IMG/VR virus record: IMGVR_UViG_3300034994_000033
Location: 1-53,374 of that record
DNA from: a virus
Direction: 5' to 3' (one strand)
Length of the DNA: 53,374 nt
This document shows, piece after piece, positions 104-52,844 of this stretch. Position numbers and translations under genes: made by a program. The notes under the pieces were generated by a model. The model searched no databases, had not been told where the DNA came from, and saw nothing but the letters and a program-made list of their open reading frames with translations. The number at the start of each line of letters is the position of its first letter. The first letter of the stretch is position 1.

Positions 104-148
104 CGGCCAAAGGGTAAGCGGTGCAACCGCTTCACCCGATGGTTAGAT
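98..148. other. attC-like site A
   Basis: The left box GCATAAC (98-104) and right box GTTAGAT (142-148) enclose an imperfect palindrome. Its arms AAGCGGT and ACCGCTT are extended by GGGT and CACCC with one bulged base, like the extrahelical bases of attC sites. The right box pairs over 10 bases with the end of the same cassette (TAATCTAAC, ending at 544). Confidence 0.8.
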
Positions 149-166
149 TACGAAAGGAGCGACAGC

Positions 167-538
167 ATGACAGACGAGCAAACATATTTCCGAGCGTTGC
201 AGAAAATTCAGAACGGTTGCTACTGCTACACCCTTGCACAGATAAAGGCAATCGTTGATGACGCATTAAACCCTGTGCCGCAATATGAGGATGTAGAGGT
301 TGTCAGGTTTGAGTGCCTGACTTGTGGATTCATTGAGGTCGAAGACTGCACATCTCCAAACGAGTGTTGCCGGAATGATGCACGAATTACACTGAAAGGC
401 TCATATAGCGTGAGGAAAAAGCCCAAAGAGTTTCGCCGTGAAGAAATCGCATTTGATATGAATTTCATTGAGGCTCTTGTATGTGGCGGTAAACGTATCC
501 CGCTATCGGCTAAATATTACGCAGAGTGGGCAGAGTAA
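167..538 (+). CDS. Cassette protein with a zinc-ribbon-like motif
   Basis: This 123-residue protein of unknown function is the only gene of its cassette. The start is preceded by AAAGGAG at 153-159. Residues around 48-69 hold a CLTC pair followed by C and CC, which could bind zinc. The rest is charged, with a basic stretch (RKKPKEFRREE), and there is no signal peptide or membrane segment. The stop lies just before the next core site. No enzymatic motif is visible. Confidence 0.75.
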   Translation: MTDEQTYFRALQKIQNGCYCYTLAQIKAIVDDALNPVPQYEDVEVVRFECLTCGFIEVEDCTSPNECCRNDARITLKGSYSVRKKPKEFRREEIAFDMNFIEALVCGGKRIPLSAKYYAEWAE

Positions 539-1952: not shown

Positions 1953-2615
1953 GTGGAAAAAGTTATTATCGGAAATGCAACTCTGTTCAAGGGAAACTGC
2001 ATGGCTGGACTGATTGACGCGGCTGATGGACAATTCAGCCTTGCAATAGTTGACCCGCCGTATGGTTTGGGAAAAAAGATCACGGCAGGCGGCACATGGA
2101 GCGCAAAACATGCCAAGGCAAACCCTCAAGGCTTTGAATGGGATGTTGCACCGACTTTCGAGTATTTCCACCGGCTAAAAAGAGTGACTACAAATCAAAT
2201 AATTTGGGGCGCAAATTACTTCGCGATGCCGCCGTGTAGAGGCTTCATCGTCTGGGACAAGGGAGTTTTATTCGGATCAGGGCAAACGTTCGCAGAGGGT
2301 GAATACGCTTGGACGAGTTTTGACCGTAATGCCAAAATCACAAGGGTTATGCCGCTTATGGGTTTTCTTTGCAGAGGCGTGGAAGAACGCATACACCCGA
2401 CACAAAAGCCGGTTTCACTGTATCGGTGGTTGTTGGCAAACTATGCAATAGCAGGAGATACGATACTTGACACGCACATGGGCAGCGGAAGCAGCGTGAT
2501 TGCCTGTCTTGACGCTGGGCTGGCCATCACCGCCTACGAAGCGAATCAAGAATATTTCGATTTGGCTTGTGAAAGAATAGAGAGATCACAGCAACAAATG
2601 AAATTAGCATTATAA
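1953..2615 (+). CDS. Beta-class DNA methyltransferase (N4-C or N6-A)
   Basis: This 220-residue SAM-dependent enzyme would methylate an exocyclic amino group of DNA. DPPY (residues 34-37) comes first. HPTQKP (148-153) and the SAM-binding DTHMGSGS (173-180) follow; this permuted order marks the beta class. The start is taken as GTG 1953, one base after the upstream stop, because the longer reading overlaps that gene by 60 bases. No restriction enzyme is nearby, so it is an orphan enzyme. A role in protecting phage DNA from host restriction is inferred. It is the last gene of the largest cassette, and its TAA is part of the core TTATAAC. Confidence 0.85.
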   Translation: MEKVIIGNATLFKGNCMAGLIDAADGQFSLAIVDPPYGLGKKITAGGTWSAKHAKANPQGFEWDVAPTFEYFHRLKRVTTNQIIWGANYFAMPPCRGFIVWDKGVLFGSGQTFAEGEYAWTSFDRNAKITRVMPLMGFLCRGVEERIHPTQKPVSLYRWLLANYAIAGDTILDTHMGSGSSVIACLDAGLAITAYEANQEYFDLACERIERSQQQMKLAL

Positions 2616-2667
2616 CGGAGGAGATAAGCAGTGAGCGAAGCGAATCTGATTGATCGTATTGTTATGC
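2610..2667. other. attC-like site E (divergent)
   Basis: The left box is TTATAAC (2610-2616) and the right box GTTATGC (2661-2667). The stem is weaker than in other sites: GATAAGCAG pairs with CTGATTGATC with one bulge and one mismatch. The methyltransferase start codon lies inside this site. The segment from TAAC onward is identical to that at 53248, upstream of the other copy, so this attC moves with the gene that follows it. Confidence 0.65.
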
Positions 2668-3197
2668 CGGTTGTCGATCTGAATATGCTCCGGGCATACA
2701 AGAAAAAATTCAACTTCTTCGAGACCCCGGAAGTGTTAGCCGACCAAATGGCTGGCTTTTTGGATGGACTGGGCCGCAATGCCCGAATATTGGAGCCATC
2801 CGCTGGAATGGGGGCACTGATACGGGCAATTGAAAGGGCGATGCTGTTTCTGCCGCAGATTGATTACTGCGAGATACAAGAAGAATTTGCAGCCATTCTT
2901 TCCACGTATAACCGCGTCGGTTCTGATTTTATGCAATACAAGCCGGGGCCGGTATATGACGCCGTGATTATAAATCCGCCGTACAAAAACAAGCTGGCCG
3001 AACTGCACGTAGACCATGCCTGGAATTGCATAAAGCCGGGCGGCTGGATCGTGGCACTTGTAGGAAAAACGGCGGGAAGCTACATAGGCTCAGAGTATGA
3101 GGGGCATATTTTCCACGAGGAAATGATCAAGAAGGGGTTTCAAGAAACCGCCGTGGACACCTGCCTATTTCTGATAAATAAGCCCCTATGGGCATAA
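2631..3197 (+). CDS. Gamma-class-like adenine DNA methyltransferase, copy B (complete)
   Basis: This 188-residue protein resembles N6-adenine methyltransferases: a SAM-binding motif LEPSAGMG (54-61) is followed by the catalytic NPPY (115-118). It lacks an obvious target-recognition domain, so it is a minimal enzyme or needs a partner. GGAGGAG precedes the GTG start by 7 bases; an alternative ATG is at 2664 in the attC box. It is the cassette next to intI. An identical second copy is split across the contig ends. A role in phage DNA modification is inferred. Confidence 0.85.
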   Translation: MSEANLIDRIVMPVVDLNMLRAYKKKFNFFETPEVLADQMAGFLDGLGRNARILEPSAGMGALIRAIERAMLFLPQIDYCEIQEEFAAILSTYNRVGSDFMQYKPGPVYDAVIINPPYKNKLAELHVDHAWNCIKPGGWIVALVGKTAGSYIGSEYEGHIFHEEMIKKGFQETAVDTCLFLINKPLWA

Positions 3198-3256
3198 CTT
3201 CTGATTATGCAGCCTTCTGGCGGGATAACGGGAAAAACTTTTGAAAGGAGAAAACC
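3198..3256 (-). other. Candidate attI region
   Basis: This 59-bp leader lies between the cassette-proximal methyltransferase and intI. On the minus strand the junction reads AAG, then GTTATGCCC, fitting a G/TT crossover where attI meets the first cassette. A second core-like GTTATCC lies 29 bases closer to intI. There is no attC-type palindrome here, as expected for attI. The region also carries AAAGGAG, the intI ribosome binding site. The position and core support the call; recombination has not been shown. Confidence 0.55.
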
Positions 3257-4420
3257 ATGCAACCTACTAAAATCAGAACACAATACACCTTTGCTCAACG
3301 TGATAATGAAATCCTGAAAAGCCCCCGTGTTGCTGGCTGGCTCTCTGATCTCCAAAAAGAATTTGCCGTCCACCACACCGACCCAAAAACCCAGAAATCC
3401 TACCGCCGAGTGATCATCCGCTTTATCCTCTGGAAAATCAAAGGCCAGTGCATGGATGATTTTGATACCGCCATGCGTAATTATCTGACCATGCGGGCGG
3501 ATAAAGATCAAATTGCCGCCAGTACCCAGAATGTTGATTTCAACGCCCTGCTGTTTTTCTGCCGGCACGTCCTGAAAAAAGAGCTCGGTAAGATCGATGC
3601 CGCCCGGGCCAAGCGGTCACAACACCTCTACGTGATCCTGTCGCGGGAAGAAGTCCGATCGATCATCGCGGCATCCACCGACGTCTACAAACTCATCAAC
3701 TCCCTGATGTACGGCTGCGGCCTCCGGGTAGAAGTCGATTGCCTGGAAATCAGGGTGAAAGATGTTGATCTTGCCCGTGGCAAGCTGGATATCCGTGATA
3801 GTAAGCACGGCAGCGCCCGTGAATTGGATATTCCTCTGGCGTGTGTCGATTTCCTTCGACTCCAGATAGAAGCCTGCAAGCGCGTTCATGATGCCGATCT
3901 GGCCGCCGGCTTCGGCGAGGTGGATCTGCCTGGTGCTTATGGCCGAAAAAATCCCGGCGCCTCCAAGGATTTTGGCTGGCAATATCTGTTTTTTGCTCAG
4001 TCGAGATGGGTCAACAAGGACGGCAGACAAGGCCGGCCACATATCCACGTTTCAGCGGTTCAGGACGCGTTCAAGATGGTCCGTAAATCACTCAGTATCT
4101 ACAAACCAGCCACTCCACACTGTATGCGTCATTCTTATGCAACACACATGTTGGAGGATGGTGTGGATATTCGTAAACTACAAAAGTTACTTGGTCACCG
4201 GAAAGTCGAGACAACGGAAGTCTACACACAGTTTACTCAGGGTGCGGGCATCCGCAGCCCGCTGGACCGTATTCTTGGTATTGCAGGAGATCTGTTACCG
4301 GTAAACGTTGGCGCGGATGTTCGGCGGTGGCTCGTGTCTTTTGCCTCAAAACTAAACATCACACAAGAAGAAGCCGCCGCACAGGTTCTGTCAATGGCTG
4401 CTCATGGGGGCATCCTGTGA
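3257..4420 (+). CDS. intI: Integron-type tyrosine recombinase (IntI)
   Basis: This 387-residue site-specific recombinase would insert and excise the adjoining cassettes at attI and attC. The catalytic set is complete: R157, K183, H288, R291, H314, Y323. Residues 211-243 (HDADLAAGFGEVDLP, then RKNPGASKDFGWQY) match the extra helix found in IntI but not in XerC/D. The following GAGIRSPLDR also matches the IntI pattern after the tyrosine. The protein runs about 50 residues beyond the usual IntI end. It faces the same way as the cassette genes and overlaps the next replication-operon gene by 4 bases, so it is probably made with the early phage genes. Confidence 0.92.
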   Translation: MQPTKIRTQYTFAQRDNEILKSPRVAGWLSDLQKEFAVHHTDPKTQKSYRRVIIRFILWKIKGQCMDDFDTAMRNYLTMRADKDQIAASTQNVDFNALLFFCRHVLKKELGKIDAARAKRSQHLYVILSREEVRSIIAASTDVYKLINSLMYGCGLRVEVDCLEIRVKDVDLARGKLDIRDSKHGSARELDIPLACVDFLRLQIEACKRVHDADLAAGFGEVDLPGAYGRKNPGASKDFGWQYLFFAQSRWVNKDGRQGRPHIHVSAVQDAFKMVRKSLSIYKPATPHCMRHSYATHMLEDGVDIRKLQKLLGHRKVETTEVYTQFTQGAGIRSPLDRILGIAGDLLPVNVGADVRRWLVSFASKLNITQEEAAAQVLSMAAHGGIL

Positions 4421-4689
4421 ATCAAGACCACCTTTATCAATTTCCCGCTACCCGTTTTGTCTCAAATTCTCTCTGGTGTCAATGGTGGCATTTATTATCT
4501 GAAGTTCTTGAAATCGGCTGGGAGTTGCTGGTCGGCAATCTGCAGCGGGCCGCAAATGAGTCGTGGGATGCCAGTCAGAGCAACGAAACGTTGCGGAGGA
4601 TCCTGTCCGGCCAGGGGGCGGATATTGAAATGGCACGGGAACAGGTTGTCAAGGGTTGTCAAGAGCGCGGGTATTATCAGGCGTTATAG
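4417..4689 (+). CDS. Hypothetical protein coupled to intI
   Basis: This 90-residue protein starts at GTG 4417, overlapping the intI stop (GTGA). It has a tryptophan-rich segment (WCQWWHLLSEVLEIGWELL) and an acidic helical C-terminus. Overlap with intI suggests coupled expression, so it could be an accessory factor for the recombinase or merely a replication-operon gene. No family is recognised. Confidence 0.65.
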   Translation: MNQDHLYQFPATRFVSNSLWCQWWHLLSEVLEIGWELLVGNLQRAANESWDASQSNETLRRILSGQGADIEMAREQVVKGCQERGYYQAL

Positions 4690-4723
4690 GTTGTAGCATA
4701 CTCCACTGCCGAGGTTCTTTTTA

Positions 4724-5644
4724 ATGGAATGGTTTAGATGGTATGGCGGGACGTTCAATGATCCGAAATTGCAGTGGGTAGCCAGTAAGTCGTGCCAGAC
4801 GGTGGCGTCGGTTCTGGCGGTATGGGTGGCTGTCCTGGAGCGGGCCAACGGTAACGAGCTCCGAGGCTGCTGCGCCGGTCTTGATTTTGAGTCGTTGGAT
4901 ATTGCCCTCGGCCTGGAGGATGGTGCTACGTGCGATATTTATCAAACGATGACGCGCAAGGCGATGATTATCGAGGGTGATATGGTTGCCGCCTGGGACA
5001 AGCGCCAACCAAAACGGGAGGACGAAACAGCGGCGGAGCGAAAGAAAACGTATAGGGATAGAGTGAAGTTGGAGAATGAAAACGAGCAGTTACGTGCTCA
5101 ATTACTTTCGCTGCAGTCCCACAATGTCCCACAATGTCCCACAATGTCCCATGATGTCACAACAGAGGAGAGGAGAGTAGAAGAGAAGAGAGAAGAAGAA
5201 CCTTTAAAAACACAACAGCAACACGCGAGCGCGGTTGAACAATTGGCCGAGGCGGTTGAAGAGCACCAGCAGGATCTGCTGCGGCTGTTCCCTGAGATCG
5301 ATATTCCGGTGGCGCTGGCGAAGCTGTTGCATCATTTCAGAACCAGCGAACGGCTGATTGATCCGTGGATGATAGCGCTAAAATGGTTTCAGAGGGAGTT
5401 CAAAGCATCTGCTCCACAAGCTACGGCACGGGCCTCTCCGGCAGGGCAGAAAAGCAAAGGCGTTTTGAGGGAAGAAGCGGCTATTCAAGCGGCTCGGGAA
5501 ACAATGGAGCTACTGGAGGATATGCGGAATGGAACGAAACAAACAGGTACAGGTGTTGACGTTGTTGCTGGAAATGACAGTCGCTCTCGGGATAGAACCG
5601 CTTTCAGCCAAACGCCAAGCGCTGTATCTGAGGCATTTGGCTAA
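4724..5644 (+). CDS. Phage replication initiator (O-like)
   Basis: This 306-residue protein has the architecture of phage replication initiators. An N-terminal winged-helix-like region (residues 1-95, starting MEWFRWYGGTFNDPKLQWVA) is followed by a coiled linker with a run of Glu and Arg, then a C-terminal helical domain. The linker is encoded by four 10-bp direct repeats and a purine tract, as in lambda gene O, where the origin lies inside the gene. Its 3' end overlaps the putative helicase-loader gene by 116 bp. Function is inferred from architecture and position. Confidence 0.7.
   Translation: MEWFRWYGGTFNDPKLQWVASKSCQTVASVLAVWVAVLERANGNELRGCCAGLDFESLDIALGLEDGATCDIYQTMTRKAMIIEGDMVAAWDKRQPKREDETAAERKKTYRDRVKLENENEQLRAQLLSLQSHNVPQCPTMSHDVTTEERRVEEKREEEPLKTQQQHASAVEQLAEAVEEHQQDLLRLFPEIDIPVALAKLLHHFRTSERLIDPWMIALKWFQREFKASAPQATARASPAGQKSKGVLREEAAIQAARETMELLEDMRNGTKQTGTGVDVVAGNDSRSRDRTAFSQTPSAVSEAFG
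5117..5156 (+). repeat. Four 10-bp iterons, candidate replication origin
   Basis: TCCCACAATG occurs three times head to tail, followed by TCCCATGATG. The 10-bp period does not fit codon length, and it matches one helical turn. About 40 bp of nearly pure purine (5161-5202) follow, an easily unwound tract. Placement inside the initiator gene mirrors lambda ori. Confidence 0.65.
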
Positions 5645-5951
5645 TTGGCCGGTCGAGGCTTTGCGTTGGGCGTGCGACCGGGCGGTACAGGAATGTCGTT
5701 ATCAGGTCATGCCGGTCCCTGGGGTGTTGATCGATTATGCCCGTGCAGCACCTCGCCGGCAGGTATGCGGTGATTTGAAGCGCACGGCATTGGATCATAC
5801 GACCAGCTACAACGAAAAGTTGGCAGAGGAATCGATAAACGCGGTTATGGCGTTGTTTACTGATGATTTTGACCGTAAGGGCATGCCGCCGGTTGTTAAA
5901 ACTCCGAGTGCGGCGGAGCAGCGAGTAGCGTTGATGGCAACTGGGTTTTAA
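5529..5951 (+). CDS. Putative helicase loader / replication protein (P-like)
   Basis: This 140-residue protein has an N-terminal helical domain (LSAKRQALYLRHLANWPVEALRWACDRAVQECRYQVMPVPG). It resembles the G39P/P-type domain that loads replicative helicase onto the phage origin. It starts inside the 3' end of the initiator gene in another frame. No phage helicase is visible in the window, so recruiting the host helicase fits. Assignment is by pattern and position. Confidence 0.65.
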   Translation: MERNKQVQVLTLLLEMTVALGIEPLSAKRQALYLRHLANWPVEALRWACDRAVQECRYQVMPVPGVLIDYARAAPRRQVCGDLKRTALDHTTSYNEKLAEESINAVMALFTDDFDRKGMPPVVKTPSAAEQRVALMATGF

Positions 5952-5971
5952 TTTTATGCTGGAGGTGACGT

Positions 5972-6193
5972 GTGGGAGGTGTGACTGCAGGAGAACGGAC
6001 GGCCCTTTTGGTTGATGAGGTTCGGTGTTGTTTGTGGTGTGACGCTACTCTGGTACAGAAAGAAGGGGAGACAAAGGATAATTTCAAAAAGAGGAGGTAT
6101 TGCGATAAACGCCACAAGAGCTTGCACCAGGGGGAACTGAGAGGCCGGCAGAAGAGGCATGTGAACTGCTCATTGTCGTCAGCAAGCGTATAA
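5972..6193 (+). CDS. Small CxxC zinc-binding protein
   Basis: This 73-residue protein has CLWC followed by C and CDKRHKSLH, a likely zinc knuckle. It is the last gene of the replication operon, and a rho-independent terminator follows within 8 bases. The GTG start is preceded by GGAGGTG. It may be a late regulator or an HNH-like remnant; no catalytic HNH pattern is complete. Confidence 0.6.
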   Translation: MGGVTAGERTALLVDEVRCCLWCDATLVQKEGETKDNFKKRRYCDKRHKSLHQGELRGRQKRHVNCSLSSASV

Positions 6194-6200
6194 ACCGAAA

Positions 6201-6224
6201 GGCCGGGGAAACCCGGTCTTTTTT
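6201..6224 (+). terminator. Rho-independent terminator after replication operon
   Basis: A 7-bp stem GGCCGGG/CCCGGTC with a GAAA loop is followed by six T. It separates the intI/replication operon from the terminase operon. Confidence 0.85.
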
Positions 6225-6263
6225 GTGTTCATTATCATAGTGAATTTTTTTGTTGCGTATTCG

Positions 6264-6289
6264 TTTATGTTGCGGTAGCCCTGAAATAT
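6264..6289 (+). promoter_or_regulatory. Late control element, copy 1
   Basis: TTTATGTTGCGGTA (6264-6277) is followed by a 7-base spacer with a fixed T and then AATAT. The same 26-bp layout occurs at 24364 and 39455, each time just upstream of an operon. Here AATAT runs into the ATG annotated for terS, so either that mRNA is nearly leaderless or terS starts at 6339. Confidence 0.7.
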
Positions 6290-6944
6290 GGGAACTGCTA
6301 ACTCGACAAATTTTGAACAAACTGCCGCTACCGGCCAGATGGTGCTTCATGATTTTGAGGCAATCATCGGTTATGAGGCGGCTGTTCTTAAAAAACCGCG
6401 CAATGAGATGTTCTGTGTGGCTTTTGTCGAGAATGGTGGCCATGCTGGAAAGGCATACCAGGCGGCAATTAATCCAAAAACTACTGATAGCAATGCCCGC
6501 AAACGCGCTCATGAACTGTTGAAAAACAAGGACATATCAGGACGTATCGCTGAATTGTCTGCTGTTATCCGCAATAGAACAATTAATGACCTGATAGACT
6601 TTCGTATCAAGGGCATGAAGTTTGATCCCGCCAATTATTACGACTCCAGTTCTGGTATCAGAAGGCAATTGCATATCAGCGACGTTAAGGATGGCCACCG
6701 AATTGGTATAGGTCTGGAGTCTCGCATCGTTGATGGCGGTGTTGTGTATGTACCGGTATTCCCCTCCCCTGAAAAATCTGCTGATGCACTGCAGAAGATG
6801 ATGGGACTCGATAAGTCGCTGGTGGAACTGGCTGGGAAGAACGGTGGGCCAATACAGACTGAAAGTGTGGTTGATGATATGGGCAGGCTGCAAAGTCTCA
6901 AGGAGAAAGCGCAGGCGTTAAAGAATGCCGGTATTATCTCCTGA
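6288..6944 (+). CDS. terS: Terminase small subunit
   Basis: This 218-residue DNA-recognition subunit of the packaging motor would select phage DNA for the large subunit. Residues 33-85 (FCVAFVENGGHAGKAYQAAI, NPKT, RKRAHELL) fit the helix-turn-helix of TerS proteins. It overlaps terL by 20 bp. The start is uncertain: ATG 6288 has no clear ribosome binding site and overlaps the control element, and ATG 6339 is in frame. Confidence 0.8.
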   Translation: MGTANSTNFEQTAATGQMVLHDFEAIIGYEAAVLKKPRNEMFCVAFVENGGHAGKAYQAAINPKTTDSNARKRAHELLKNKDISGRIAELSAVIRNRTINDLIDFRIKGMKFDPANYYDSSSGIRRQLHISDVKDGHRIGIGLESRIVDGGVVYVPVFPSPEKSADALQKMMGLDKSLVELAGKNGGPIQTESVVDDMGRLQSLKEKAQALKNAGIIS

Positions 6945-8535
6945 ACATATTGCGGAACTTCAAGAAGCGTCGTTCTTTGAAATTGCGGATCTTTGGGCAG
7001 CTATCATCCACGAGCATGGTGATGCCGGTAAAGCCGAACTAGGTCAGGTAGATCGCTTCTATCTGCTGACTAATTTGTTGCACCGCCCTGATGCTTTTCA
7101 TCCTTGGCTGTATAAACGCTGCCGCGAGGTTGAAGCGGCCCCGGATGGTTTTCTGGATCTGTGGGCACGTGAACATTACAAGTCCACGATAATCACGTTT
7201 GCCGGAATTATTCAAGAGATCATCAAGGATAAGGAAATAACCGTCGGACTGTTGTCGCACTCAATGAAGCCGGCCAAGAAGTTCCTACAGATGATCAAGA
7301 CCGAGTTGGAAATCAACGAAGAACTTAAATCGTTGTACCCTGGCGTGTTTTGGCAGAATCCGGAACGCGATGCGCCTGCAGCTGGTAGACAGTGGAACTC
7401 TTTCAGGTTGGATGTGAACCGTGATAACAACCCGCGAGAGGGAACGTTGGAGTGTTCCGGGCTGGTCGATGGCCAGCCGACCGGTTCTCATTTTAGACTG
7501 CGAGTATATGACGATGTTGTTACTCGTGAAAGCGTTACCAGTTCGGAAATGATTGATAAGACCACAAGCGCCTGGGAGTTGTCTGATAACCTTGGCGCCC
7601 GGGGTGAGGATGGAAGGAGCAGAACTTGGCATATAGGCACTCGCTATCATTTTGCTGATACTTATCATCATATTCTGGAAAAGAAGTTGCTTAAGCCCCG
7701 TTTACATCCGGCTACTGATAATGGCCGGATAGATGGAAAGTCGGTTTTTCTGCCGCCGGAAGTGCTCAAAGACAAGATCATCCGGCAGGGTACGAACTTT
7801 CCGGCGCAGATGTTACAGAATCCGGCTGCCGGCAAGAATGCGACGTTTCAGAAGGATTGGCTCAAGTTTACCGATATCAGGCCCGGAACTATCAATGTGT
7901 ATATCATGGGAGATCCGGCCAGCAGCAAGAAGAAGGGGAGCGATAGTACTGCTATTCCGGTGATTGCAGTTGATGCTGCCCGTAACAAGTATTTGATTGA
8001 TGGCATGTGCCACAAGATGAATCTACGGGAACGGTGGTTGGCAATACGTGATTTGCGTCGCAAGTGGCGGAGTCAGCCGGGGGTGCAAACCGTCGAAGTT
8101 GGTTATGAGAAGTATGGTATGCAGTCGGATCTGGATTATTTTCAGGAGCAGATGGAGGCCGACCAGGATGTTTTTGATATCAAGGAACTGAACTGGACCC
8201 GCGACGGTACGACCAGTAAAGAGGATAGAGTGCAACGCCTGGTGCCGGACTTCCTGAAAGGGCAGTTTTATTTGACGGCGGTAACTCCCTCGGAAACATC
8301 GAATCAAAAGAGGGTGAGAGAAGATGGGCAGCCGTACCGTATTTTGCAGCCGGTTAAGCGCAAAGATCATGAGGGGAATTTGTATTCACTCAACAAGCAG
8401 TTTTTGGATGAATTTCTGTTTTTCCCGTTTGCTGTGCATGATGATTTGATAGATGGTTGTAGCAGGTTATACGACATGGACTATAAGCCGCCGATCATTT
8501 ATGACGAGCAGATGCTGGAACCGGAGGTGGAATGA
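6925..8535 (+). CDS. terL: Terminase large subunit
   Basis: This 536-residue packaging ATPase and nuclease cuts concatemeric DNA and pumps it into the prohead. A Walker A-like AREHYKST (81-88) and a Walker B VYDD (194-197) form the motor. MGDPASS (D330) and HDDLIDG near the C-terminus fit the RNase H-fold nuclease. The variant Walker A and overall layout are like T7/podovirus-type large subunits. It is the second gene of the late operon. Confidence 0.93.
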   Translation: MPVLSPEHIAELQEASFFEIADLWAAIIHEHGDAGKAELGQVDRFYLLTNLLHRPDAFHPWLYKRCREVEAAPDGFLDLWAREHYKSTIITFAGIIQEIIKDKEITVGLLSHSMKPAKKFLQMIKTELEINEELKSLYPGVFWQNPERDAPAAGRQWNSFRLDVNRDNNPREGTLECSGLVDGQPTGSHFRLRVYDDVVTRESVTSSEMIDKTTSAWELSDNLGARGEDGRSRTWHIGTRYHFADTYHHILEKKLLKPRLHPATDNGRIDGKSVFLPPEVLKDKIIRQGTNFPAQMLQNPAAGKNATFQKDWLKFTDIRPGTINVYIMGDPASSKKKGSDSTAIPVIAVDAARNKYLIDGMCHKMNLRERWLAIRDLRRKWRSQPGVQTVEVGYEKYGMQSDLDYFQEQMEADQDVFDIKELNWTRDGTTSKEDRVQRLVPDFLKGQFYLTAVTPSETSNQKRVREDGQPYRILQPVKRKDHEGNLYSLNKQFLDEFLFFPFAVHDDLIDGCSRLYDMDYKPPIIYDEQMLEPEVE

Positions 8536-8672
8536 TGGCAAGCGAGGATAAGGTGAATTCAAGTTCTATCCTGTTTTCGCAGGTGGTGAAGGGGATGGAT
8601 ACCAGCGAAGAGGAAAAGCCGACTTACGAATTCAGTAATGGCCGTAAGTTTGTGGAGCCTAAACCGGTATGA
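8535..8672 (+). CDS. Small hypothetical protein
   Basis: This 45-residue acidic protein lies between terL and the portal module. GGAGGTGG lies 7 bases before the ATG, and the terL TGA overlaps the start. The stop overlaps the next gene (ATGA). No family is recognised; tight packing supports translation. Confidence 0.6.
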   Translation: MASEDKVNSSSILFSQVVKGMDTSEEEKPTYEFSNGRKFVEPKPV

Positions 8673-8806
8673 CGGATAGCGGCAATTACGAATATGACCG
8701 TCTACCTGAGTCGATCAAGGCTGTATATTCCCTGAAAGAATGGCTGTGGCTGTCTGCCAGGGAAAAACAAACGTTGGAGCAGCGCGAAACTGAACCGGAG
8801 TGTTGA
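8669..8806 (+). CDS. Small hypothetical protein
   Basis: This 45-residue protein overlaps the preceding stop (ATGA) and ends two bases before the next ATG. It has an aromatic helix (VYSLKEWLWLSAREKQTLEQ). It may be a small head or packaging accessory; the function is unknown. Confidence 0.6.
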   Translation: MTDSGNYEYDRLPESIKAVYSLKEWLWLSAREKQTLEQRETEPEC

Positions 8807-8808
8807 CG

Positions 8809-9186
8809 ATGAATATTATTTGCAGAGACGATGCACCGACGTTTGACCGCGAGGTAGAGCCGCTTGTTATTGTTGATCCGCTGGATCAGGCGATATGCGA
8901 GCAAGTTGCCTGCACGCTGCTGCGGCATTACGGCGGCTATGACTGGCTGGTTGAGGCGGATTATCGCAAGGGTTTTATCGATATTCGCAACGTGTCGCTG
9001 GATGGCCAGATGGGGTGCAGGATTCCGATGAACGGCTATGCATCGTCCTCGGAGCTGGACAAGATTGCCATGCGTTATGGTGGCGAAATCCTGGAGCGGT
9101 TCGGTTTGGTACGCGGGGCAAAACGGGTGGACGATGTTGAGAATTTGACTCAAGACTTTGCCGGCAGGCTGGAGTACGACAAATGA
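8809..9186 (+). CDS. Hypothetical protein upstream of portal
   Basis: This 125-residue acidic protein starts at ATG 8809, two bases after the previous stop, and overlaps the portal start. It looks like a compact alpha/beta protein (RHYGGYDWLVEADYRKGFID). It has no signal peptide or catalytic motif I can name. It sits in the portal operon of a podovirus-like phage. Confidence 0.7.
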   Translation: MNIICRDDAPTFDREVEPLVIVDPLDQAICEQVACTLLRHYGGYDWLVEADYRKGFIDIRNVSLDGQMGCRIPMNGYASSSELDKIAMRYGGEILERFGLVRGAKRVDDVENLTQDFAGRLEYDK

Positions 9187-11312
9187 GCGAAGAATCTACA
9201 AATGACGCCTTTTGGGTGGAACGTGCGCGTGATGCCGAGTCGTCCTCAAGTTCGTTCTTTGATACTAACGTCCGGAACAGGATCATTCAGGATGTGCGGC
9301 AATTTCAAAGCGAACATCCGGAAGGGTCAAAGTATTTTACTGATGCCTATCGGTTGAAGTCACGACTATTCCGGCCAAAGACGCGCACGGCGATCAGAAA
9401 AAACGAGGCGATTGGCGCGGCGGCCTATTTCTCCACAGAGGATGTGACCAGTGTCCGGGCGGTGGATGATAATGATCCGTTATCACAAGCCGGCGCGGCG
9501 TTCCATAAGTCGCTGCTGCAGTATCGCCTGACACGCCCCTACCCTCACGGTATGCCGTGGTTTTTGACGTGCATGGGCGCATATCAGGAGGCCCAGGCGG
9601 TTGGAGTTGTCGGCTCATATCAGTTTTGGAATATCAATGAGCTCAAGAAGCTGGACCGGCCTGATATTTTTCTGCTGCCGATTGAGAATTATCGTTTTGA
9701 CCCTGCGGCCGACTGGCGGGATGTGGTTAATTCCAGCCCGTATTTCATTATCAGGTGGCCGATGTATGTCAAGGATGTGCTGGCACGGATGAAGCCGGCG
9801 GCTGATGGCAAAGCCAAGTGGCGCTCATATTCCAAGGTTGAGGTGTTGGCCGGCGGAAAAAGCAATTACGACACGATCCGGCTGACGCGCGAGGGCAAGG
9901 GCACCGATTCCAAGGCCGCGAATACCGGTGATTCCGATTATACGATTGTCTGGGTGCATGAAAATTTTATCGAGGTCGAAGGCCACGACGTAACGTACTA
10001 CACGCTGGGAACCGAAAAACTGTTATCAGATCCGGTGCTGGTGGAAGAAAAACATCCGCAAGGGCGTCCGGTAGCGGTGGGCTTCACCATTCTGGAAGCT
10101 CACAAGGTGTATCCGTCAAGCGAACCATCATTGACCAGGGATATCCAGAGCGAAATAAATGAAGTAGCAAATATGCGGATCGACAATGTGAAGCACATGA
10201 TGAACAAGCGCTATTTTGTCAAGCGCGGCAAGAATGTTGATCTGCGGTCGCTGGTCCGCAACATTCAGAGCTCCGTAACGCTGATGGATGATCCTAACGC
10301 GGACGTGAGAGTTATTACCACCGATGATGCTACGTCATCATCGTATCAGGAGCAGGACCGGCTTAATCTGGATTTTGACGATATATCGGGTTCGTTCTCC
10401 GGATCGTCGGTGGCGTCAAACCGAAAGCTGAATGAAACCGTGGGAGGAATGAACCTGCTCTCCAATTCAGCCAACATGGTTTCCGAATATCAGCTGCGGA
10501 CATTCACGGAAAGCTGGGTGGAGAAGGTGTTGCGGCAGTTTATCGTACTGAACCAGTTTTACGAGACAAATGAACTGGTGTTGAAGATGGCGGGCCGGGA
10601 TGCCGCTATCAGTGATCACGGTTTTGAAGAGGTTACGGACGATATGATCATGCAGGATGTGATGCTGTCGGTTAATGTCGGCACCGGATCAACCAATCCG
10701 CAAACACAGGCCGACCGTTTTGGTTTTGCCATGGATATGGCTGCCAAGCTTGTAGGTCCGGAAAAGCTCAACCAGATGCTTAATCAGGATGAGGTTTTGA
10801 AAGAGGTCTTTGGCAAGTGCGGTTATAAGGATGGTTCCCGCTTCTTCAAGAAGGATGACGGCCAGGAGCAGGAAGATCCACGTATCGCTCAATTGTCGCA
10901 GGCTGTTCTGGAGCTGCAGGCCGCGCTGAAAGCCAAGAATCCTCCGGAGGTTGTTGCGGCTCAGGTAGCCAAACTGAATTCGGAGAAGGATCTGAACGAA
11001 GTACGGTCTATGGTGCAAAGGGTTGAGGCGCTTTTTGCCGCCATGAATACGGCGCAAACAGCAGTGCAGGTGCCGGGTATTACTCCGGTGGCCGATGCCA
11101 TCGCCAAGAGTGCAGGTTTTGTGGATATGGATGCCGCGCCAATTTATCCCCAAAATATTCAGCAGCAGGAGATCCCGGAAGGTGCGCATATCCCGCAGAA
11201 TACTTCACCCATGTTTCCGGCTAAAGCGGCTACGGGGATGATGTCAGGGGTTGAAAGCGGAGTAGGTCCTGCCAATGCTGTTCAGTATGATAATGAACAA
11301 GGTGAAATTTAA
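9183..11312 (+). CDS. Portal protein
   Basis: This 709-residue portal subunit forms the dodecameric ring through which DNA enters and leaves the head. The size is near that of the P22 portal. N-terminal YFTDAYRLKSRLFRPKTRTA, a central PLSQAG segment and a long helical C-terminus with Gln-rich barrel-like repeats fit the family. The position directly after terminase and before a scaffold-like gene and the capsid gene supports the call. Confidence 0.85.
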   Translation: MSEESTNDAFWVERARDAESSSSSFFDTNVRNRIIQDVRQFQSEHPEGSKYFTDAYRLKSRLFRPKTRTAIRKNEAIGAAAYFSTEDVTSVRAVDDNDPLSQAGAAFHKSLLQYRLTRPYPHGMPWFLTCMGAYQEAQAVGVVGSYQFWNINELKKLDRPDIFLLPIENYRFDPAADWRDVVNSSPYFIIRWPMYVKDVLARMKPAADGKAKWRSYSKVEVLAGGKSNYDTIRLTREGKGTDSKAANTGDSDYTIVWVHENFIEVEGHDVTYYTLGTEKLLSDPVLVEEKHPQGRPVAVGFTILEAHKVYPSSEPSLTRDIQSEINEVANMRIDNVKHMMNKRYFVKRGKNVDLRSLVRNIQSSVTLMDDPNADVRVITTDDATSSSYQEQDRLNLDFDDISGSFSGSSVASNRKLNETVGGMNLLSNSANMVSEYQLRTFTESWVEKVLRQFIVLNQFYETNELVLKMAGRDAAISDHGFEEVTDDMIMQDVMLSVNVGTGSTNPQTQADRFGFAMDMAAKLVGPEKLNQMLNQDEVLKEVFGKCGYKDGSRFFKKDDGQEQEDPRIAQLSQAVLELQAALKAKNPPEVVAAQVAKLNSEKDLNEVRSMVQRVEALFAAMNTAQTAVQVPGITPVADAIAKSAGFVDMDAAPIYPQNIQQQEIPEGAHIPQNTSPMFPAKAATGMMSGVESGVGPANAVQYDNEQGEI

Positions 11313-19149: not shown

Positions 19150-22100
19150 ATGTCGGTATCACCAAGCGCAACAGTAAAGATACTCACCAATGTTGGCGAT
19201 CCGCTCATGTCGTCTGACGGGACTCCCCTTGCCGGAGCCACGTTGACATTTCAGTTGGTTGATTTTCAGCGCAAAAAAGTGGTCTCGGTTTTTGATGTGG
19301 TTAGCGGGGAGTTGGTGTCTTCACTGCCGATAACGGCAATCACCAATGCGGCCGGAGAGATCAAAAACGCCGCAGGCACCGCTGACATTGCCTTGTGGCC
19401 CAACAGCCGGGGGGATGTTCCCACCTGTTACAAAGTAACTTGCAGCGACCCCGCTATCCAAAAAATATACATCATCGTTGATGAAGCTGTCGATACCACA
19501 TTGTTATCTGCAAAGCTGGCCTACGAAATCGGAGAAGGCGCAATCAGTCTGCCGGATATGCCTACCTCCCCGTTGCTTGACATCGCAATAGCCGCAACGG
19601 CAGGGGACAGGGTGCAGACCGGACTTGATCGGGTGCAAACCGCCCTCGACAGAGTAGCGACCGGTCAGGACAAAACCGCAACTGCGGCAGATCGGGTGCA
19701 AACCGCCCTCGACAGAGTAGCGACCGGTCAGGACAAAACCGCAACTGCGGCAGATCGGGTGCAAACCGCCCTCGACAGAACAAGCACCACCGAATCAGCT
19801 TCAGCTTCCGCTGCCAGTGCCGCCCTGGTGCAGCCACAACTCACAGCCTTTGGTGACAGGGTTGACGCTGTTGAAGTCGGGCAATCTGCTGCTGTCATCG
19901 GCTATGCTACGCAAGCTGCACTGTATGCCGACCTTGTCCCTGATGATAAATCGGTTGCCTATGTCACCAACGACGCAACCTCCGCCAACAACGGCACTTA
20001 TCGCAAAAGCGGTGCTACCGGCATTGGCGCTTGGGTACAAAGCAGCTTCGACCGGGTAGCGCTTGTAGAAGGCCGTGCCGCCACCCTTGAAAGCGGTGTT
20101 TCAGCCTTGGCGACGATAGGTCAGGACGTTTCAATCACCGTTAACATGACCGCCAAAACCATCACCGGCGGCGGGGGTCCCGTTTTTTACAAGGGAGGCT
20201 ACACGGTCATCCCATTGGCACAAAATGTCGCCTTCGCCTATACAAATCCCCCGGGATATGCAATGTTTTTGTACGCCGACAAAATCACCGGCGTGCTGGG
20301 TATAGCCGCTGATGCCGCACGTCCCCCAGTCGGTTCGGTCTTACTGGGTTTTATTTACGCGCAAAAAATCTACGCAAACGACCCTACCGGACAGATAAGG
20401 GTCATCCCCACCAGCTACGGAGTTGTAGGCGGTTTTGGTGAGCGGTGGGGCACCTATACCGGCAACATTGGCGGCCTCACTATCAATCAGCAGTCCAAGA
20501 CGATCACCACCGATTCCACGGGCGGAGCGCTGGTGCACAAGGGCGGGCTGGTAACCATCCCAGGCGGCCAGAACGTGTCCTACATTTTTGCCACCTCTAC
20601 CAATACGGGGTATTTGTTCGCTCACCCGGTCACCGGGGATCTTAATATGACCGACCTGGGGGCGCTGCCGCCGGTCGGGTTCCCGGTTATTGGCATGGTC
20701 AAAGGAGAACAGTTCTACTCCATTTCCCCTAGCCGTTTTATTAAATATATCAACGCAGGTGGGACGCTCCTGAGAGTGGACGGCCTGTCCCAGTGGCGGG
20801 ATCTGTTTGGCATGGTTGGGTCTGACGTGGATCTAACAATAAATCTGGCGGCAAAGACCGTCACGACATCTGCCGGTGGGGGGTTAATCCTCTCACAGGA
20901 AGGGTATGTTTCGCTGGCCGGTTCGCAGAACGTCAGTTTCACCCATACCAGCGCCAACTATCTGCTTTACGTTTACGCCGACAAAACTACTGGCATACTG
21001 GCCGCAATTCAGGCACCGGGTACTCCGCCGGTAAACTCGGTTTTGATTGCCATGAGCTACAGTCAAAAATTATATGCCAATGACCCTTACGGTAAAATAA
21101 CACTGCGTAACGCAGCCGGGGTTGCCCTCCCGTTTGGTCCCCCTGATGCACTTGGCATCATCAGCAAGGACGTTGGCGTCACGATCAATCTGGCGACAAA
21201 ACTGGTTACCACGGTCAGTACCACTAATGCGGCAGTATTCTTTAAAGACGGCTACGTCTATGTCCCCTCCGCACAGAGTGTAAGTTTTGCACAGACGTTG
21301 CCTACATATCTGCTCTATGTGTATATCGACAAAACCACGGGTGTTGTCGCCGCCGTCCAGTTGACCCCAACGTTCCCAGCCAACTCGGTATGTATCGCCA
21401 TTATTTACGGGCAGCAAATCTACGCCAATGATCCATATAAAAGAATATCTCTGTATGACGGTAGCGGGGACCTAGTTACATCGTTGGCGGGAGGACTGGC
21501 CCCCTTCAACGAATTAGCACACCGGCTGATCCTGCCTGATGCCATTTATTTTCTCCCCAACACGCCACTGGCGCTATTCAAGGCGCCTTGCTTCTCAGCC
21601 TATCAGTTCAGTCTGATGAGTCAGTTACGGCTCTGGTTGGACACCAAAGGATCAACAATTTCATCCCGCTTCCAATCGGTTGATGAAGTGTTACGACTCG
21701 ACCCCGCACAACTCGGCAGTACTTTCGAACTCGGGTTCAGACACGAATCCCAGCCGGACGTGCGCTACATCAAGCCGATTGTGAAGAATGTATCTGCCGA
21801 GGGGGCGCTGACTGGCCGAAACCTCAAGATGCTGGTGATTGGTGACTCGCTAACCGAAGGTCTGATGGCGGATGCCATCCAGGCCAATCTAAACGTCCAG
21901 GGCGCTACAGTGACTCCAGTAGGAACATATTTTGCTGCATCAACAAACTACCTACGGGGGGAAGGTCGTGGATTTTGGAACTACCGTTCTTTTATCGGCA
22001 AAGACAATTATAGTACCGGGATCGGAGCCCACACCCGCAGCAGCGGTGGTAAAACCGATACCACTAAATTCGAAAATCCGTTCCTCAAGCTGGCTGACGC

Positions 22101-28187: not shown

Positions 28188-28205
28188 TTGTCAAAGGGGA
28201 GTCTC

Positions 28206-31200
28206 GTGGCTGACTCGATAGTTTTATCAAAAGATGATGTCGGTGAAGATATTCTACAACCCAAATCTATCGTGTTGTCCATGGATGATGTCGGTACGGA
28301 TGTATTGCCTAAAGTGCGGAACCCCCGGGTTTTATCTAGTTCCGATCTTGGTCGAAACATTTTAGAACCAGAGCCAGTAGACTCTTCCAAAATAAAAATG
28401 TTCACCAATGACCGGGCCCGCACCGGCGGTATGCAGTCGGTCCTTGGTATTGCTTCGCAGTCGGACCGGAATGCGCGCGCTTTGGCCGATGATGTTTCCA
28501 ATGCCGTTGCCACTGCTCCGGCAACGGTTGTCTCTGGGGCCGTCCGGGGCGCCGGATCTTTGCAGGTGGCCGTGGCGCAGGCAAAAGCTCCGGGCTTTCT
28601 GCCGGGCATGGGGTACGTGGATAACTCCGGCAAGACCATTCCCGTTGATGATGGCGGCGATATATTCACCCCCCCGGATCGTTCTTACTATACAAAGCGC
28701 TATACCGGCATGGAGCGCAGCGGCTTTGACAAGATGGATCAGGCTGATGTCGTAATGGCGCAGATCAAGCAGGATGCGCCTGTTAGCAGCCCGATCGTGG
28801 ATAAATACCTGCGAGAAGGATTCAGTCAGGCTGGTAACATGCTCCCTACCCTGCCGCTTGCAGCCATCCCGGTTATCGGGCCTGAACTGTCCGTGCAGAT
28901 GATGGCCCGCGGCGCCGGTGCCGATGCGATCAAGAAAGGCCGTGAGATCGGTCTGACTGATGACGAGATAGATGATTACGTCAGCAAACAAGTCGGGCCG
29001 GAATATGTCGGTGAGAGGCTGTCAATAGGCCCGATGCTGGCAATGCTGAACAACAAGGTCCCTTTCTTTAAAGCACTCGGGACACACCAACTGGCGGAAA
29101 TCAGCAGCGAGATTGGGACGTCTCATTTTCAGCTTGCCGCTGATAAGGCGTATGAAAAGCCCGGCCTGTCCAGGGAAGAACGCAACCGTATTTATGATTC
29201 ATGGATAAACATGGACGCGCAGCGCAATGACCCCAAGGCAATGACGGAATGGGCCAACAACATGAAGGATACCGCTATCACCACGCTCGGCATGACACAC
29301 GTCATGGGCGCGGCCGGTGGAGCGCACCGTGTGGCGACAACAATTAGCGCTCCTGCTGAAACAGATGCAATAACCCGCGGAATGGATTTCACCGGCGCCG
29401 ATGAAGCGGCCCTTATTCGCTCAATGCCGCCCGAAAGAGCTGCGGCGTATCTGAAAAAGAAACAGCAAGCCGCCTCGGCACAAATACACGGTAACGAACC
29501 CCTCTCCTCCCCCCCCCCTGCAACTTCATACCAGAACGAAGGGTATGACGATATCGAAGATATGCCGGCGCCGAAGGGCCCATTGGAAAATGCGGCAAGC
29601 CAGGCGGTTACAACAACAGGACCGGATACGGCACCTGATAACATACCCCCGTTTACTCCTCCCGAAACTCCTGTCACCACAGAGTCCGTGCCGCCTATCG
29701 ATGTTTCGGGCGGTACGGCTCCCCCGTCTGCCGTCAGGGAAATAACCGATGCGGACCAGACCGATTTTGAGAATGCGGTGTTGTGGGAAATCAAGCTGCG
29801 CGAAAGCGGCCGATCGGCTGTACCGGATATTGAGGGCGAATCGGCAAGAGACCACGCCTGGCGTTTATTGGAAACGTATCGCAAGGCTATTACGCCGCTG
29901 GTCGCCGGGGATACGTCGGGCGCGGTGGAAGAAACACAGCACCCGGCCCCGGCGGCGCTGGCGGCCGGAGATACCAATGGCTTTTTGACTTCGCTCGGTT
30001 ATCCGAAAATCAGGAACGCCGACCACTTCGAAACGGGAGGGATCGGGGCAATAAAGAATAATGAATACGAATCGCCGCCAATGCCGGGCGACGTCGCTGA
30101 ATCGTTGATGGGTCAAGCCACTGCTGCCGGGCTTTCCGCAACGGCTGCACCGTACATGATGACTCGCAAAAAGCTGGACGGTTCTTTTGAAACCATCCCG
30201 GCGGGGTCCGGGCGGGTAACAGTAAAGATTTCACAGGCGCAGGAGAAACCCGATGGCGCTACAGATACAGTGCCCGCATTGCCAGGGGCGTCCGAAGTGG
30301 AACGGCCGGGAGTGGGAGTGCCCGAAGTGCAAGGCAAGGATACCGGATCAGAAAATAATTTACCTCAACCCGGAGGAATGAATAATGATCTGTCCAGCGT
30401 GCGGCAAGAAACAGGCGTCCCGCAAGAAGTGCCACCAGTGCGGGTCAGGGAAAATGCATCGATTGATGAAGCTGCGCATGCTGCCGCGACATCTCCACGG
30501 AATGACGTTCCGGAGCCGACGACCGCCCAGATCGAGGCCGGCAATTATAAAAAGGGACATGTCAACATCCATGGTCTTGATATCTCCATAGAGAACCCCG
30601 CCGGGTCATTGCGCAAGGGTGCCGATGAGAACGGCAAGTCCTGGCAGACCGAGATGGCGCACCATTACGGCTATATCAAGGGGACGATCGGCAAGGACAA
30701 GGATCATATCGACGTATTTGTCGGGCCGGATCAACAGAGCGGCAAGATATTCGTGGTTGACCAGATCGACCCGAAAACCGGCGAACTGGACGAGCACAAG
30801 GTGATGATGGGTTTTGGTTCTCTTCCGGCGGCCCGGGCCGGATATCTGGCAAATTATGATAAGACCGGCGCGCAGAGAATCGGCGCTATCACGGAAAGTT
30901 CCGTCGATGATTTCAAGCAGTGGCTTAAAGAGGGCGACACCAGGAAAGCCTTTGCCCCGCAAGTTACCAAGGTTACCACGGTAACCTCCGGGATTTCCAC
31001 CTCAGTCCGTCGTCAACTCGATACCTCAAAAGACAGCCTCCAGCTGGCCGTCGCCAAACTGGGGGGGATCAATCGTGCCGAGCTCGATCAGCAGACCGGT
31101 ACCGGCAAGGACCTGGCGCATACCCTGAACAGCATGGCCTCGAAAGAGGGGGGAACATTCCTGCATACCATCAAGAGTACCGGTCTGCCGCTGGACACGA

Positions 31201-34200
31201 TGCGCGAGGCGCTGGTGGAGAACGGCTATCTCAAGCCGGCCGACGATATCAACACCCTGCTGGACAAGCTGGACGGCGCTTCCCGCGGCGAGGTGCATCG
31301 CTCCACGCATGCGGCCGATACCGGGGATGCGGCGTACAGCGAGGCGGAAACGCGCTATGCCGAGATGATCGGCGCGATGACCAACGAAGAGTATGAGGAA
31401 TATTCCCGCAACCAGTGGCTCGATGAACAGGCGGAAGAGCTGGCCGCCGCCGCTGATATCATCGACGAATATCTGTCCGGATTTGACGAAGAGAAGATGA
31501 CCGCTGCCGACTGGCAGGAGGTTGAAAACGATCTTAAGGAGGCGCTGGATGCCGAAATCAGCAGCGGAAACATTGAAGAGAATAAAGAACCGGGCCAAGA
31601 AGATGCCGCCGGAGAAGCGCAAGGCGTTCATGTCGGCGGTGAAGGTGATACTGCGGACAAAAGTCAGGCAGGTACAGGAAAAAATGTAGAGCAGCAGAAC
31701 AAACTTTTCGCCACTCCCTCGACTTTCGGCACCAAGCCACAACCCAAGACCACAAACCGCGACGTTTCTACGTCCGGCTTATTGGATGGTTTCACCAAGG
31801 ATGATTCGGTGCAGCCGGGTCTGCCGGGCGGCACAACCGAAACAAAATCATTAACCGATAAGGTTAACGAAACCGAAAGCGCCCAGACGGATAATAGCGG
31901 GCCGGCGACCTCTTCAGAAAAAACAAAACTGGAAGATTTCGGCGAGAAGATCGGCGGGGCCCGTAAGGATTACGCGGCCAAGCTGGATCATGCCAAAACA
32001 CTTGATATTGCCACAGAGCCGTTTGCAAAGACGTGGCCGGAACCCGACTATCTCAAGATGCTGGCAGACGGTTTCGATGAGCAACATGTTTCTCTGGTTC
32101 GCGCCCTACGCGATGAAATCCCCGACAAGCCCCGCAAGTCATGGAAACTGCAACCATGGGTCAAGTTGGTTGAATCCCTGCGGGATCATGCTGAGTTAGC
32201 ATTGCAGGGCAAAAGTCCTGTTTTGTACAAGGTATTGAAAGAGACCGAATTCGTTAATTCCTCCGCACAAGATATCGCCGGCCGTGCCGAACTTTACCAC
32301 GCGGTAGGTCACGATGTTTCCCTGCGGGGCGTTACCCTCAAAAAGAACTTTTGGAATCTGTACCACGGCGAGAAGGATGTTACCAAGTGGCAGGTTGAAG
32401 GTAAACAGAAAGCAACCGCCTTCGGTAATATGCCGCGCGAATTGGGGATAGGTAACACCAAGGCCGAAGCGATAGATGACTTTAAATCAAAGATTTCTAC
32501 GCTGGCTCCGGGAGAAAAGGGTAAGAAAACAACCGAATTCATCATTTATCAGTACCGGGCAAAAGATAAACCCGGCCATTACATCGGCAAGAAGATCGGC
32601 CAGGATTATCTCGACCTGCAGAAGTTCGATGATGCCAAAGCTGCCCGGGAGTATCTGAACAGCCATCGGACAGAACTTGAAGCACAGCTTGCAAGTATGA
32701 AGAATGTTCCTAATGAACGCCGGGACGTCAATAACCCCCGTTCTGGTGAAGACTACCGAGGCGGCAAAGATGTGACGCCGGAGATGTTCACCAACTCCTT
32801 TGGGTTCAGAGGGGTCGAGTTCGGCAATTATGTAGAAGGTTCAAAGCGGCAGAACGATTTGAACAACGCCTTCGATGCCTTGAATGACCTGGCCGGCTTG
32901 CTGAATATACCGACTCAGGCTATATCCCTAAATGGTGAACTCGGGCTGGCATTCGGTGCAAGGGGCCATGGCGGCAAACACGCCGCTGCTGCGCACTATG
33001 AATCTGACAAAATCGTCATCAATCTGACCAAGAACCAGGGCGCCGGATCTTTGGCGCATGAATGGTTTCATGCGTTCGATAGTTATCTTTCCCGCACGCG
33101 CGGCTATAAAGGCGACTTCATTACCGACAAGACCGTCAAGTATGGTCCGGCGGATGGAACCCGGCAGGAGTTGATAGACGCTTTTATTGATCTCAGAAAA
33201 AACTTGAACGCCACCAACATGAAAACCCGTTCGCGGGAACTGGATAAAACCCGCAACAAGGATTACTGGTCAACCGGGATCGAGATGCATGCCCGGGCGT
33301 TTGAAAACTATGTAATCGACAAGCTGACCGACAGCAATACCAGCAATGATTATCTGGCCAACATCAACAGCGTATCCGAGTATGCCGATGCCATGCTTCA
33401 CGGTTTTATGACCGGCAAGACGGTTAACGATCTGTACCCGTACCTGCTGGATTCCGAGAAGGCGGCGGTCGTCAATTCTTTCGATAAACTGTTTGCAACG
33501 CTACAGACCAAACAGACCGACAAGGGCGTTGCCCTCTACTCCAACCCGCTGTTCGATCCCGCCCTGGTTGTATCCTCCCTCTCCGGGCTTGCCAAGAATC
33601 TGAAAGAGGATATTCCGAAGTTGGTCAAGTTGGGACAAGTCGTTATCCGTGAAGGCGCCGGGAAATATCAGCAGTTCCTGGCCGGGATGAAGCAATATCT
33701 CGGCGACAAATGGGACACATTCAAATTGCAGATGCTGAAGATTTATCACCAGGCGAAAGCGGCATACGCCAAGAGCTCCAACCCGCTGTTCGATCCCGCC
33801 CTGGTTGTATCCTCCCTCTCCGGGCTTGCCAAGAATCTGAAAGAGGATATTCCGAAATTGGTCAAGTTGGGACAAGTCGTTATCCGTGAAGGCGCCGGGA
33901 AATATCAGCAGTTCCTGGCCGGGATGAAGCAATATCTCGGCGACAAATGGGATGCCTTTAAATTGCAGATGTTGAAGGTTTATCACCAGGCGAAAGCGGC
34001 ATACGCCAAGAGCAGCACCGCCGAGAAAGAGGCGAACTTTGCCCTTGCACAGCCTGATAATAATGATATAGTTACAGAGAAAGGAGCCGCCCATGAATCA
34101 GACTCAGGAGAGTTCTATGTCCCCCGCCGAATATCAGAAACACGTGACGGAAATCGGGCGGAAAGAAATCGCGCTGATGCCGAAGCTGTTGCCAGGGCAG

Positions 34201-42232: not shown

Positions 42233-43385
42233 TCATGTGGTTTTATCCTCTTTTTTTATTCCGGAAATTGCAGAGGCAATTTTTACCGCTTCACTTTGTA
42301 AATATTCCGCCATCAACTTTGTGTAGTCTTGAGTTGTTCTGATATCTTCGTGACCGGCCAGTTCACGGACAGCCGCTACCGGTACTCCGGATATGATAGC
42401 GCTGGTGACAAAGCTGTGCCGCATCAGATGGTTGTATACTCGCTTGTCAATCCCAGCCGCTATCGCTGCTGATTTTAAACTCTTCTTGATATTGGTGTAC
42501 GGTCGTTTGGTTTTCGGGTTTACAAACAGGTAGTCACCAGGTTTTTTTCCTTCAATTGTTTCTGCCAGGATCCGGCGTAGGTCATCGGTTACTATTGGTA
42601 CGACTCTTGTTTTATCTCCCTTGCCTGTTATGATAAGCGCGTTGTTGTCAATATCGATATTTTGTTTGCGTAATGTCAGAGCCTCGGTTTTACGCAGTCC
42701 GTTTTGCACCATCAACATTGTTAGTGTCCGCTGAAATCCTTCCTTCTGGTTCTCTATTAACCTGGGTATTTCTCCCAGCGACAAAACCACTTTGGCTTTT
42801 GCTTTCTGCTGGCTTTTTGGAAAGCCCTTGGGGAAGTCCCCTACCGTGTATTTTTCTTCATCCTTGCACCAGCGCAGGAACGTTCTGAAATAGTTCAGTT
42901 CAATCTGGATGGTGCGCTTACAAATGGTTCTCGTTTCTACCAGACAACGAGCGGCATATTCTTCATCGGTTTCGGCGTTCTTGTCGTTTGCCCTATCCTT
43001 CCGGTGCTGCCGTTTTTTGGGGATGATCTTTGTTGCCAGACGCGCGGCTTTATATGGTTCGTAGTCGCTGTTGCAGGTATACGATGTATTTATTACCCAG
43101 ATAAGGAATGAGTTTTTTGAAGGCCAACATACACAGATCGTGTGTTTTGGGGTACATGGTGGCATGCCAGGTGAAGAATTGTTTCAGGAGGTCAATCACC
43201 TTAAGCCGGCCATTGTTTTCAGGGGCAATCCCCCGAAGCTCCCGCTCGTGTGCAAGGGCTCGGGCCTCGGTGCCCTGGAAAGGGATGTATTCCGTTGGTA
43301 AGTAGTTCTTGGAGCCTTTGCGGCCGTGGCTGATGATGATGTACCACCAGCCGTGGCCGCGTGTCGGGTGGGGTTTAATTGACAC
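42233..43385 (-). pseudogene. Phage integrase (tyrosine recombinase), frameshifted
   Basis: This would be about 385 residues. The N-terminal arm-binding part (43385 to about 43080, up to YLGNKYIVYL) and the core and catalytic part (about 43070 to 42233, from DYEPYKAARL) are in different frames, and the first frame stops at 43050. The catalytic part is otherwise whole: GLRKTEALTLR, HLMRHSFVT, GHEDIRTTQDYT. Rejoining needs a +1 shift near 43060-43080. There is no homopolymer or obvious slippery site. It may be inactive, a sequencing error or a programmed shift. Confidence 0.8.
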
Positions 43386-45059: not shown

Positions 45060-45130
45060 TTTGTGAATTGAACCGCCTAAAATCCAAATTTATGTGAAAT
45101 TATTTGTTGACACTTCAGATTTTGTGAATT
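45058..45130. promoter_or_regulatory. Operator repeats in the lysogeny/early switch
   Basis: ATTTTGTGAATT occurs at 45058-45069 and 45119-45130, and the related ATTTATGTGAAATT at 45088-45101. Spacing is about 30 bp. One copy touches the repressor start and one the -10 region of the early promoter, so a bound repressor could block both. Confidence 0.8.
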
Positions 45131-52836: not shown

Positions 52837-52844
52837 GGTTTTCG

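Follow-up and report, generated by a model that had tools for sequence, protein, structure and literature searches.

Cassette genes inverted relative to attC in a phage integron of otherwise orthodox geometry

We analyzed the whole of IMG/VR record IMGVR_UViG_3300034994_000033 (53,374 bp, classed as linear; referred to as the window) and found a phage integron in which intI, attI and attC very probably retain the orthodox geometry while the cassette genes are turned round. We read it as a member of a lineage of phage integrons from Desulfobacterota/Geobacter-type hosts with genes inverted relative to attC. The window belongs to a tailed phage. Terminase and portal genes, together with a second integrase (42233–43165, minus strand) and a repressor (44655–45059, minus strand), indicate that this phage is probably temperate. 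A 44-nt repeat with the core TTTATGTTGCGGTA occurs at 6253, 24353 and 39444 in gaps of the late region and perhaps represents late promoters. Tandem repeats of 237 nt and 63 nt were observed at 33539–34012, inside an ORF of 3750 aa (28188–39440), and at 19627–19815, respectively.

The integrase gene intI (3257–4420, plus strand, 387 aa) clears the NCBIfam cutoff for integron integrases narrowly (TIGR02249, 266.6 versus 265 bits). Its closest relatives are 46–66% identical and are found on the viral contigs L003 and L004 and the MAG contigs L006, L007 and L008, all with the same layout as the window. A second, alignment-based integrase scan yielded no further viral loci. The other 77 genome loci from the integrase search served as ordinary controls. 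The integrase tree took in five of the six inverted-layout integrases (L006 was left out), and these five form a single clade with a support of 100/99. L004 contains a Mu-type transposase, and the gene order of both L004 and L008, as judged from their translations, resembles that of Mu, so the module is not confined to one phage type. The records are metagenomic and incomplete, which counts against the inverted-cassette reading. Two that carry such cassettes, L094 and L089, contain no intI and may therefore be fragments or integrase-less arrays.

The cassette array extends from about 51489 across the contig junction to 3198, with all cassette genes on the plus strand and directed towards intI. 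Its attC sites were scored with a covariance model derived from the minus strand of phage attCs (referred to as R2); all of them lie on the minus strand, upstream of the genes given with them. The array begins with the sites at 51489–51539 (50.6 bits; gene 51574–51939) and 51934–51986 (43.1 bits; gene 52006–52257), followed by a possible degenerate attC at 52252–52320 (14.0 bits unfiltered). Cassette C (about 52776–53247) comprises an attC at 52772–52834 (39.9 bits, 96% identical to its counterpart in L094) and a gene at 52845–53213. On the other side of the junction are the sites at 98–148 (51.7 bits; gene 167–538), 538–600 (45.4 bits; gene 629–898), 902–959 (46.3 bits; genes 976–1209 and 1206–1400) and 1395–1452 (59.8 bits). 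The last precedes a block at 1488–2615 plus the first copy of a gene termed MTase B; this block includes MTase A (1953–2615), an N6/N4-type DNA methylase (PF01555, 50.3 bits). No exact recurrence of the core of the attC at 98–148 was found, and relatives of MTase A (L097–L105) gave no attC match at E ≤ 1. The leader TACGAAAGGAGCGACAGCATG is common to window positions 148–168 and to 6926–6946 of L003, where the genes are unrelated and the attC hairpins differ. Such sharing of leaders across different hairpins is not predicted by a simple cassette model and speaks against the inverted-cassette reading. A perfect 24-nt inverted repeat (52256–52279 and 52731–52754) flanks a block with an ORF at 52355–52684 inside the array. 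The cargo is rich in DNA methyltransferases, which are present in three of the loci, and L004 carries a NADAR-domain gene, a composition consistent with counter-defence or counter-restriction use.

In known integrons, extrahelical bases on the R''-L'' arm of the folded attC decide which strand is cut, and the cut is made at R' (PMC2727003). Since noise was high when the extrahelical base was modelled with a rigid stem, a local alignment of the arms combined with covariation was used instead. Among 30 hand-picked phage sites read on the plus strand, the extra bases were located on the 3' arm in 22 cases and on the 5' arm in 6, with 2 ties; the 6 sites that bulge on the other arm in this simple alignment count against the inverted-cassette reading. 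In a 26-site alignment, a bulge on the 5' arm of the minus strand gave 89.9% of cells paired and a covariation of 0.480, compared with 79.5% and 0.351 for the mirrored bulge and 77.0% and 0.326 for no bulge. The value of 0.480 was not reached in any of 500 shuffles. The window thus contains an attC array with a conserved fold and an extrahelical base, as expected of an integron.

The minus-strand model R2 also recognized ordinary attCs, at E ≤ 1 in 33 out of 34 cases in the orthodox orientation. These comprised 29 of 30 chromosomal or prophage attCs, on the strand pointing away from intI, as well as all four class 1 attCs, on the gene strand and each directly behind a resistance gene. It follows that the phage attCs are orthodox on the minus strand, with their genes on the plus strand. 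The reverse model, built from ordinary attCs, contained no consensus pairs and used sequence only. It was weak but consistent, with four phage matches, all on the minus strand; the small number of phage sites that it found counts against the inverted-cassette reading. Of the 34 phage sites, 31 had a gene running opposite to the attC strand, versus 8 of 30 ordinary controls (Fisher p 1e-7). The usual layout, with genes pointing away from attI and attC 3' of the gene, is absent here, as the same 31 of 34 attC-adjacent genes are inverted. Gene orientation belongs to the usual integron layout and lies outside the recombination chemistry. These counts and the reversed attC polarity bear out the first-pass annotation, according to which the genes read towards intI and are inverted compared with ordinary integrons. 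A chromosomal Pelobacter integron contains an attC very like the phage type (L071:664–722, 37.7 bits) beside an inverted ORF, which may reflect cassette exchange with phages.

A putative attI adjoins intI at 3195–3230 (minus strand) and reads GCATAA/CTTCTGATTATGC, where the slash marks the edge from which conservation starts with the C in six loci. The conserved stretch CTTCTGATTATG directly follows the TAA of the last gene just upstream of the window's intI, and close versions are present in the five other loci. Across the six loci, pairwise identity amounts to 0.27–0.38 left of the TAA and 0.57/0.53 just right of it; in all six the attI-like site begins exactly at TAA/C. As judged from this fixed edge, intI is accompanied by a likely attI, as in other integrons. 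The Geobacter contig L006 has three attI-like junctions TAA/CCATTGATTAYAC for one intI (L006:9904; L108:12736 and 8433, minus). The two extra copies lack an adjacent intI and each closes another cassette cluster.

The first-pass annotation relied on a duplicated methyltransferase unit, MTase B, said to be shared from TAAC to TAAC. Copy 1 (2613–3198, plus strand) is complete and consists of TAAC, an RBS, a methyltransferase-like gene (2631–3197) with weak MTase matches in PADLOC, and again TAAC; a viral relative was sought and none was found. The second copy, also on the plus strand, starts at 53248–53374, identical to 2613–2739 (127/127), and ends at 1–104, identical to 3095–3198 (104/104). 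Matches of 127 and 104 nt exclude a chance repeat. Both edges lie at TAAC and the flanks differ at once on all four sides, so the described extent is correct for the sequenced parts. Both contig ends, however, are located inside copy 2, which is therefore split: 127 + 104 nt of the expected 586 nt are sequenced and the middle 355 nt are absent. A further claim, that the upstream attC belongs to the shared unit, could not be upheld. With R2 at normal filters no attC was detected between 1453 and 3198. An unfiltered search assigned 16.5 bits on the minus strand and 5.3 bits on the plus strand to a stretch overlapping the start of MTase B (2610–2667), and 13.8 bits to its counterpart in copy 2, whereas the window's seven good sites score 40–60 bits. 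This stretch does not form a stable hairpin (DNA folding energy −2.0 kcal/mol, z +1.3; arm pairing p = 0.28) and is at best an attC remnant. The duplication, taken earlier as proof of the cassette layout, fails as such because the copied unit holds no working attC, in addition to the partial sequence of its second copy. That MTase B appears to have moved despite this lack also counts against the inverted-cassette reading. MTase B is probably an eroded cassette that lost its hairpin and kept its edges, positioned at attI and again upstream across the contig junction. Cassettes at L003:7338 and L007:15640 begin with AACGGGTSTTCAGATCAGSGGAGG, only half an attC, and resemble the eroded MTase B unit.

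The two copies would be explained most simply by a circular genome containing MTase B twice, with the assembly broken at the repeat. The shared stretch of 127 nt equals a usual assembler k-mer, which fits such a break. The same features, with both contig ends inside the repeat, would be expected if co-occurring phages of a possibly mixed population each had one copy at a different place and the contig joined the variants; a comparable repeat of 99 nt in L007, adjacent to a stretch of N, points the same way. Nevertheless, one complete copy lies on a single path between unique flanks, and the contig ends fit the same repeat as predicted for a two-copy circle, so we regard an assembly or population effect as rather unlikely; even if it were true, both contexts have TAA/C edges. 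Slightly better placed, yet still doubtful, is copying of the unit by illegitimate or homologous recombination at the repeated TAACGG motif, independent of IntI. This motif is present at nearly every cassette junction and the unit lacks a folding attC. Both edges, on the other hand, fall exactly on the crossover point predicted from the attI and attC evidence, and IntI also accepts non-attC sites, namely the attG sites cited in PMC12901181.

The cassette layout is better judged from relatives in which an attC is part of the exchanged unit. Cassette C recurs in L094, an unrelated phage, with the attC on its 5' side. The 5' part of the gene and the 3' tail are common to both, both flanks differ, and the edges lie at CGAA/C and TAA/C. 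A comparison with related phages had been suggested in the first-pass annotation, and its outcome supports that annotation. The same 99-nt end of a cassette adjoins attI at one position in L007 and its own attC at another, both times at TAA/C. Cassettes thus change place as whole units bounded by the crossover box. An ordinary array, in which units of a gene and a downstream attC are cut at the GTTR box of the plus strand and intI is merely shifted to the far end, would be in line with the R''-like TAACGG directly after the genes, as in classical arrays. Edges at these right-hand boxes had been named beforehand as the observation that would overturn the inverted layout, and there is one weak case: at L007 15212, 92% identity with cassette C begins at GTTAGGG instead of the outer edge of attC, whose sequence has lost all similarity above background. 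L094, which is the closer relative, is at odds with this case, carrying the upstream and not the downstream attC. Given also the reversed attC polarity and the attI-like site that in six loci lies next to intI, starting exactly past the final stop codon, we consider an ordinary array highly improbable. The same three lines of evidence agree with the earlier description of the cassettes as attC, gene and TAA, with the crossover at TAA/C on the plus strand.

Based on these results we propose the following mechanism. On the minus strand the order would be attI followed by cassettes that each end in attC, with all ORFs on the plus strand, directed towards attI and intI. IntI recombines single-stranded attC with attI. 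In the window it would act on the folded plus (coding) strand of attC, the equivalent of the orthodox bottom strand, and cut at the orthodox R' box G/TTA, which is TAA/C on the plus strand. A cassette defined by this cut comprises the C, attC, RBS, gene and TAA, and the crossover would often supply the stop codon of the gene. The insertion point for new cassettes, next to intI, would be the one most distant from the upstream promoter, opposite to the situation in ordinary integrons. The array and intI are presumably read through from an upstream phage promoter, in which case no Pc would be needed. A pattern scan detected no strong promoter near attI. A candidate for the early promoter driving cassette expression is the sequence TTGACA-17-TATAAA (45107–45135, plus strand), with a perfect −35 and a 5/6 −10 box, and all genes from there to the array are on the plus strand. 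On balance we lean towards a dedicated lineage in temperate phages, Mu-like and others, of Desulfobacterota/Geobacter-type hosts, whose cassettes are inverted so that counter-defence genes and intI join the early operon, with the coding strand as the recombining attC strand and with one intI sometimes serving several attI sites.

The choice of the attC strand is usually explained as inserting a cassette such that Pc can express its gene (PMC2727003, PMC8946536). A lineage that keeps this choice but turns its genes would mean that expression and recombination polarity are separable, with a phage operon replacing Pc. The phages would gain a modular store of anti-restriction genes, and the question why cassettes normally face one way becomes testable. 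The inversion of genes relative to attC is well supported, and our literature search, with preprints and most subscription papers outside its scope, returned no matching report of inverted or reversed cassette arrays.

Ordinary integrons (class 1, Vibrio, Lysobacter, Planctomycetes) share with the window the IntI family, an attI beside the 5' end of intI, the attC polarity relative to intI and a crossover at the intI-distal box of attC. Their genes, however, point away from intI, with attC at the 3' end of the gene and Pc by attI, whereas those of the window point towards intI and have attC at their 5' end. The reversed integrons of the Treponema type (PMC3607928) resemble the window in the shared transcriptional direction of intI and the cassette genes. 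In that type it is intI that has been reversed, so that it reads towards attI with the array behind its 3' end; in the window the attI-like site is upstream of the intI start, and intI, attI and attC are placed as in orthodox integrons, the cassette genes alone being reversed. Virus Rctr41k (L005, KX853513) has an intI directed towards attC-bearing cassettes behind it, with methyltransferase genes (4680–9430), an arrangement that resembles an integron of the Treponema type carried by a phage. The phage integrons and CALINs described by Qi et al. 2023 (PMC9892861) likewise combine integron parts in phages with methyltransferase cargo. The complete integrons among them derive from Vibrio, Shewanella or class 1 bacterial integrons, whereas the one described here belongs to a separate integrase clade with inverted cassette genes, found in Mu-like and other phages.
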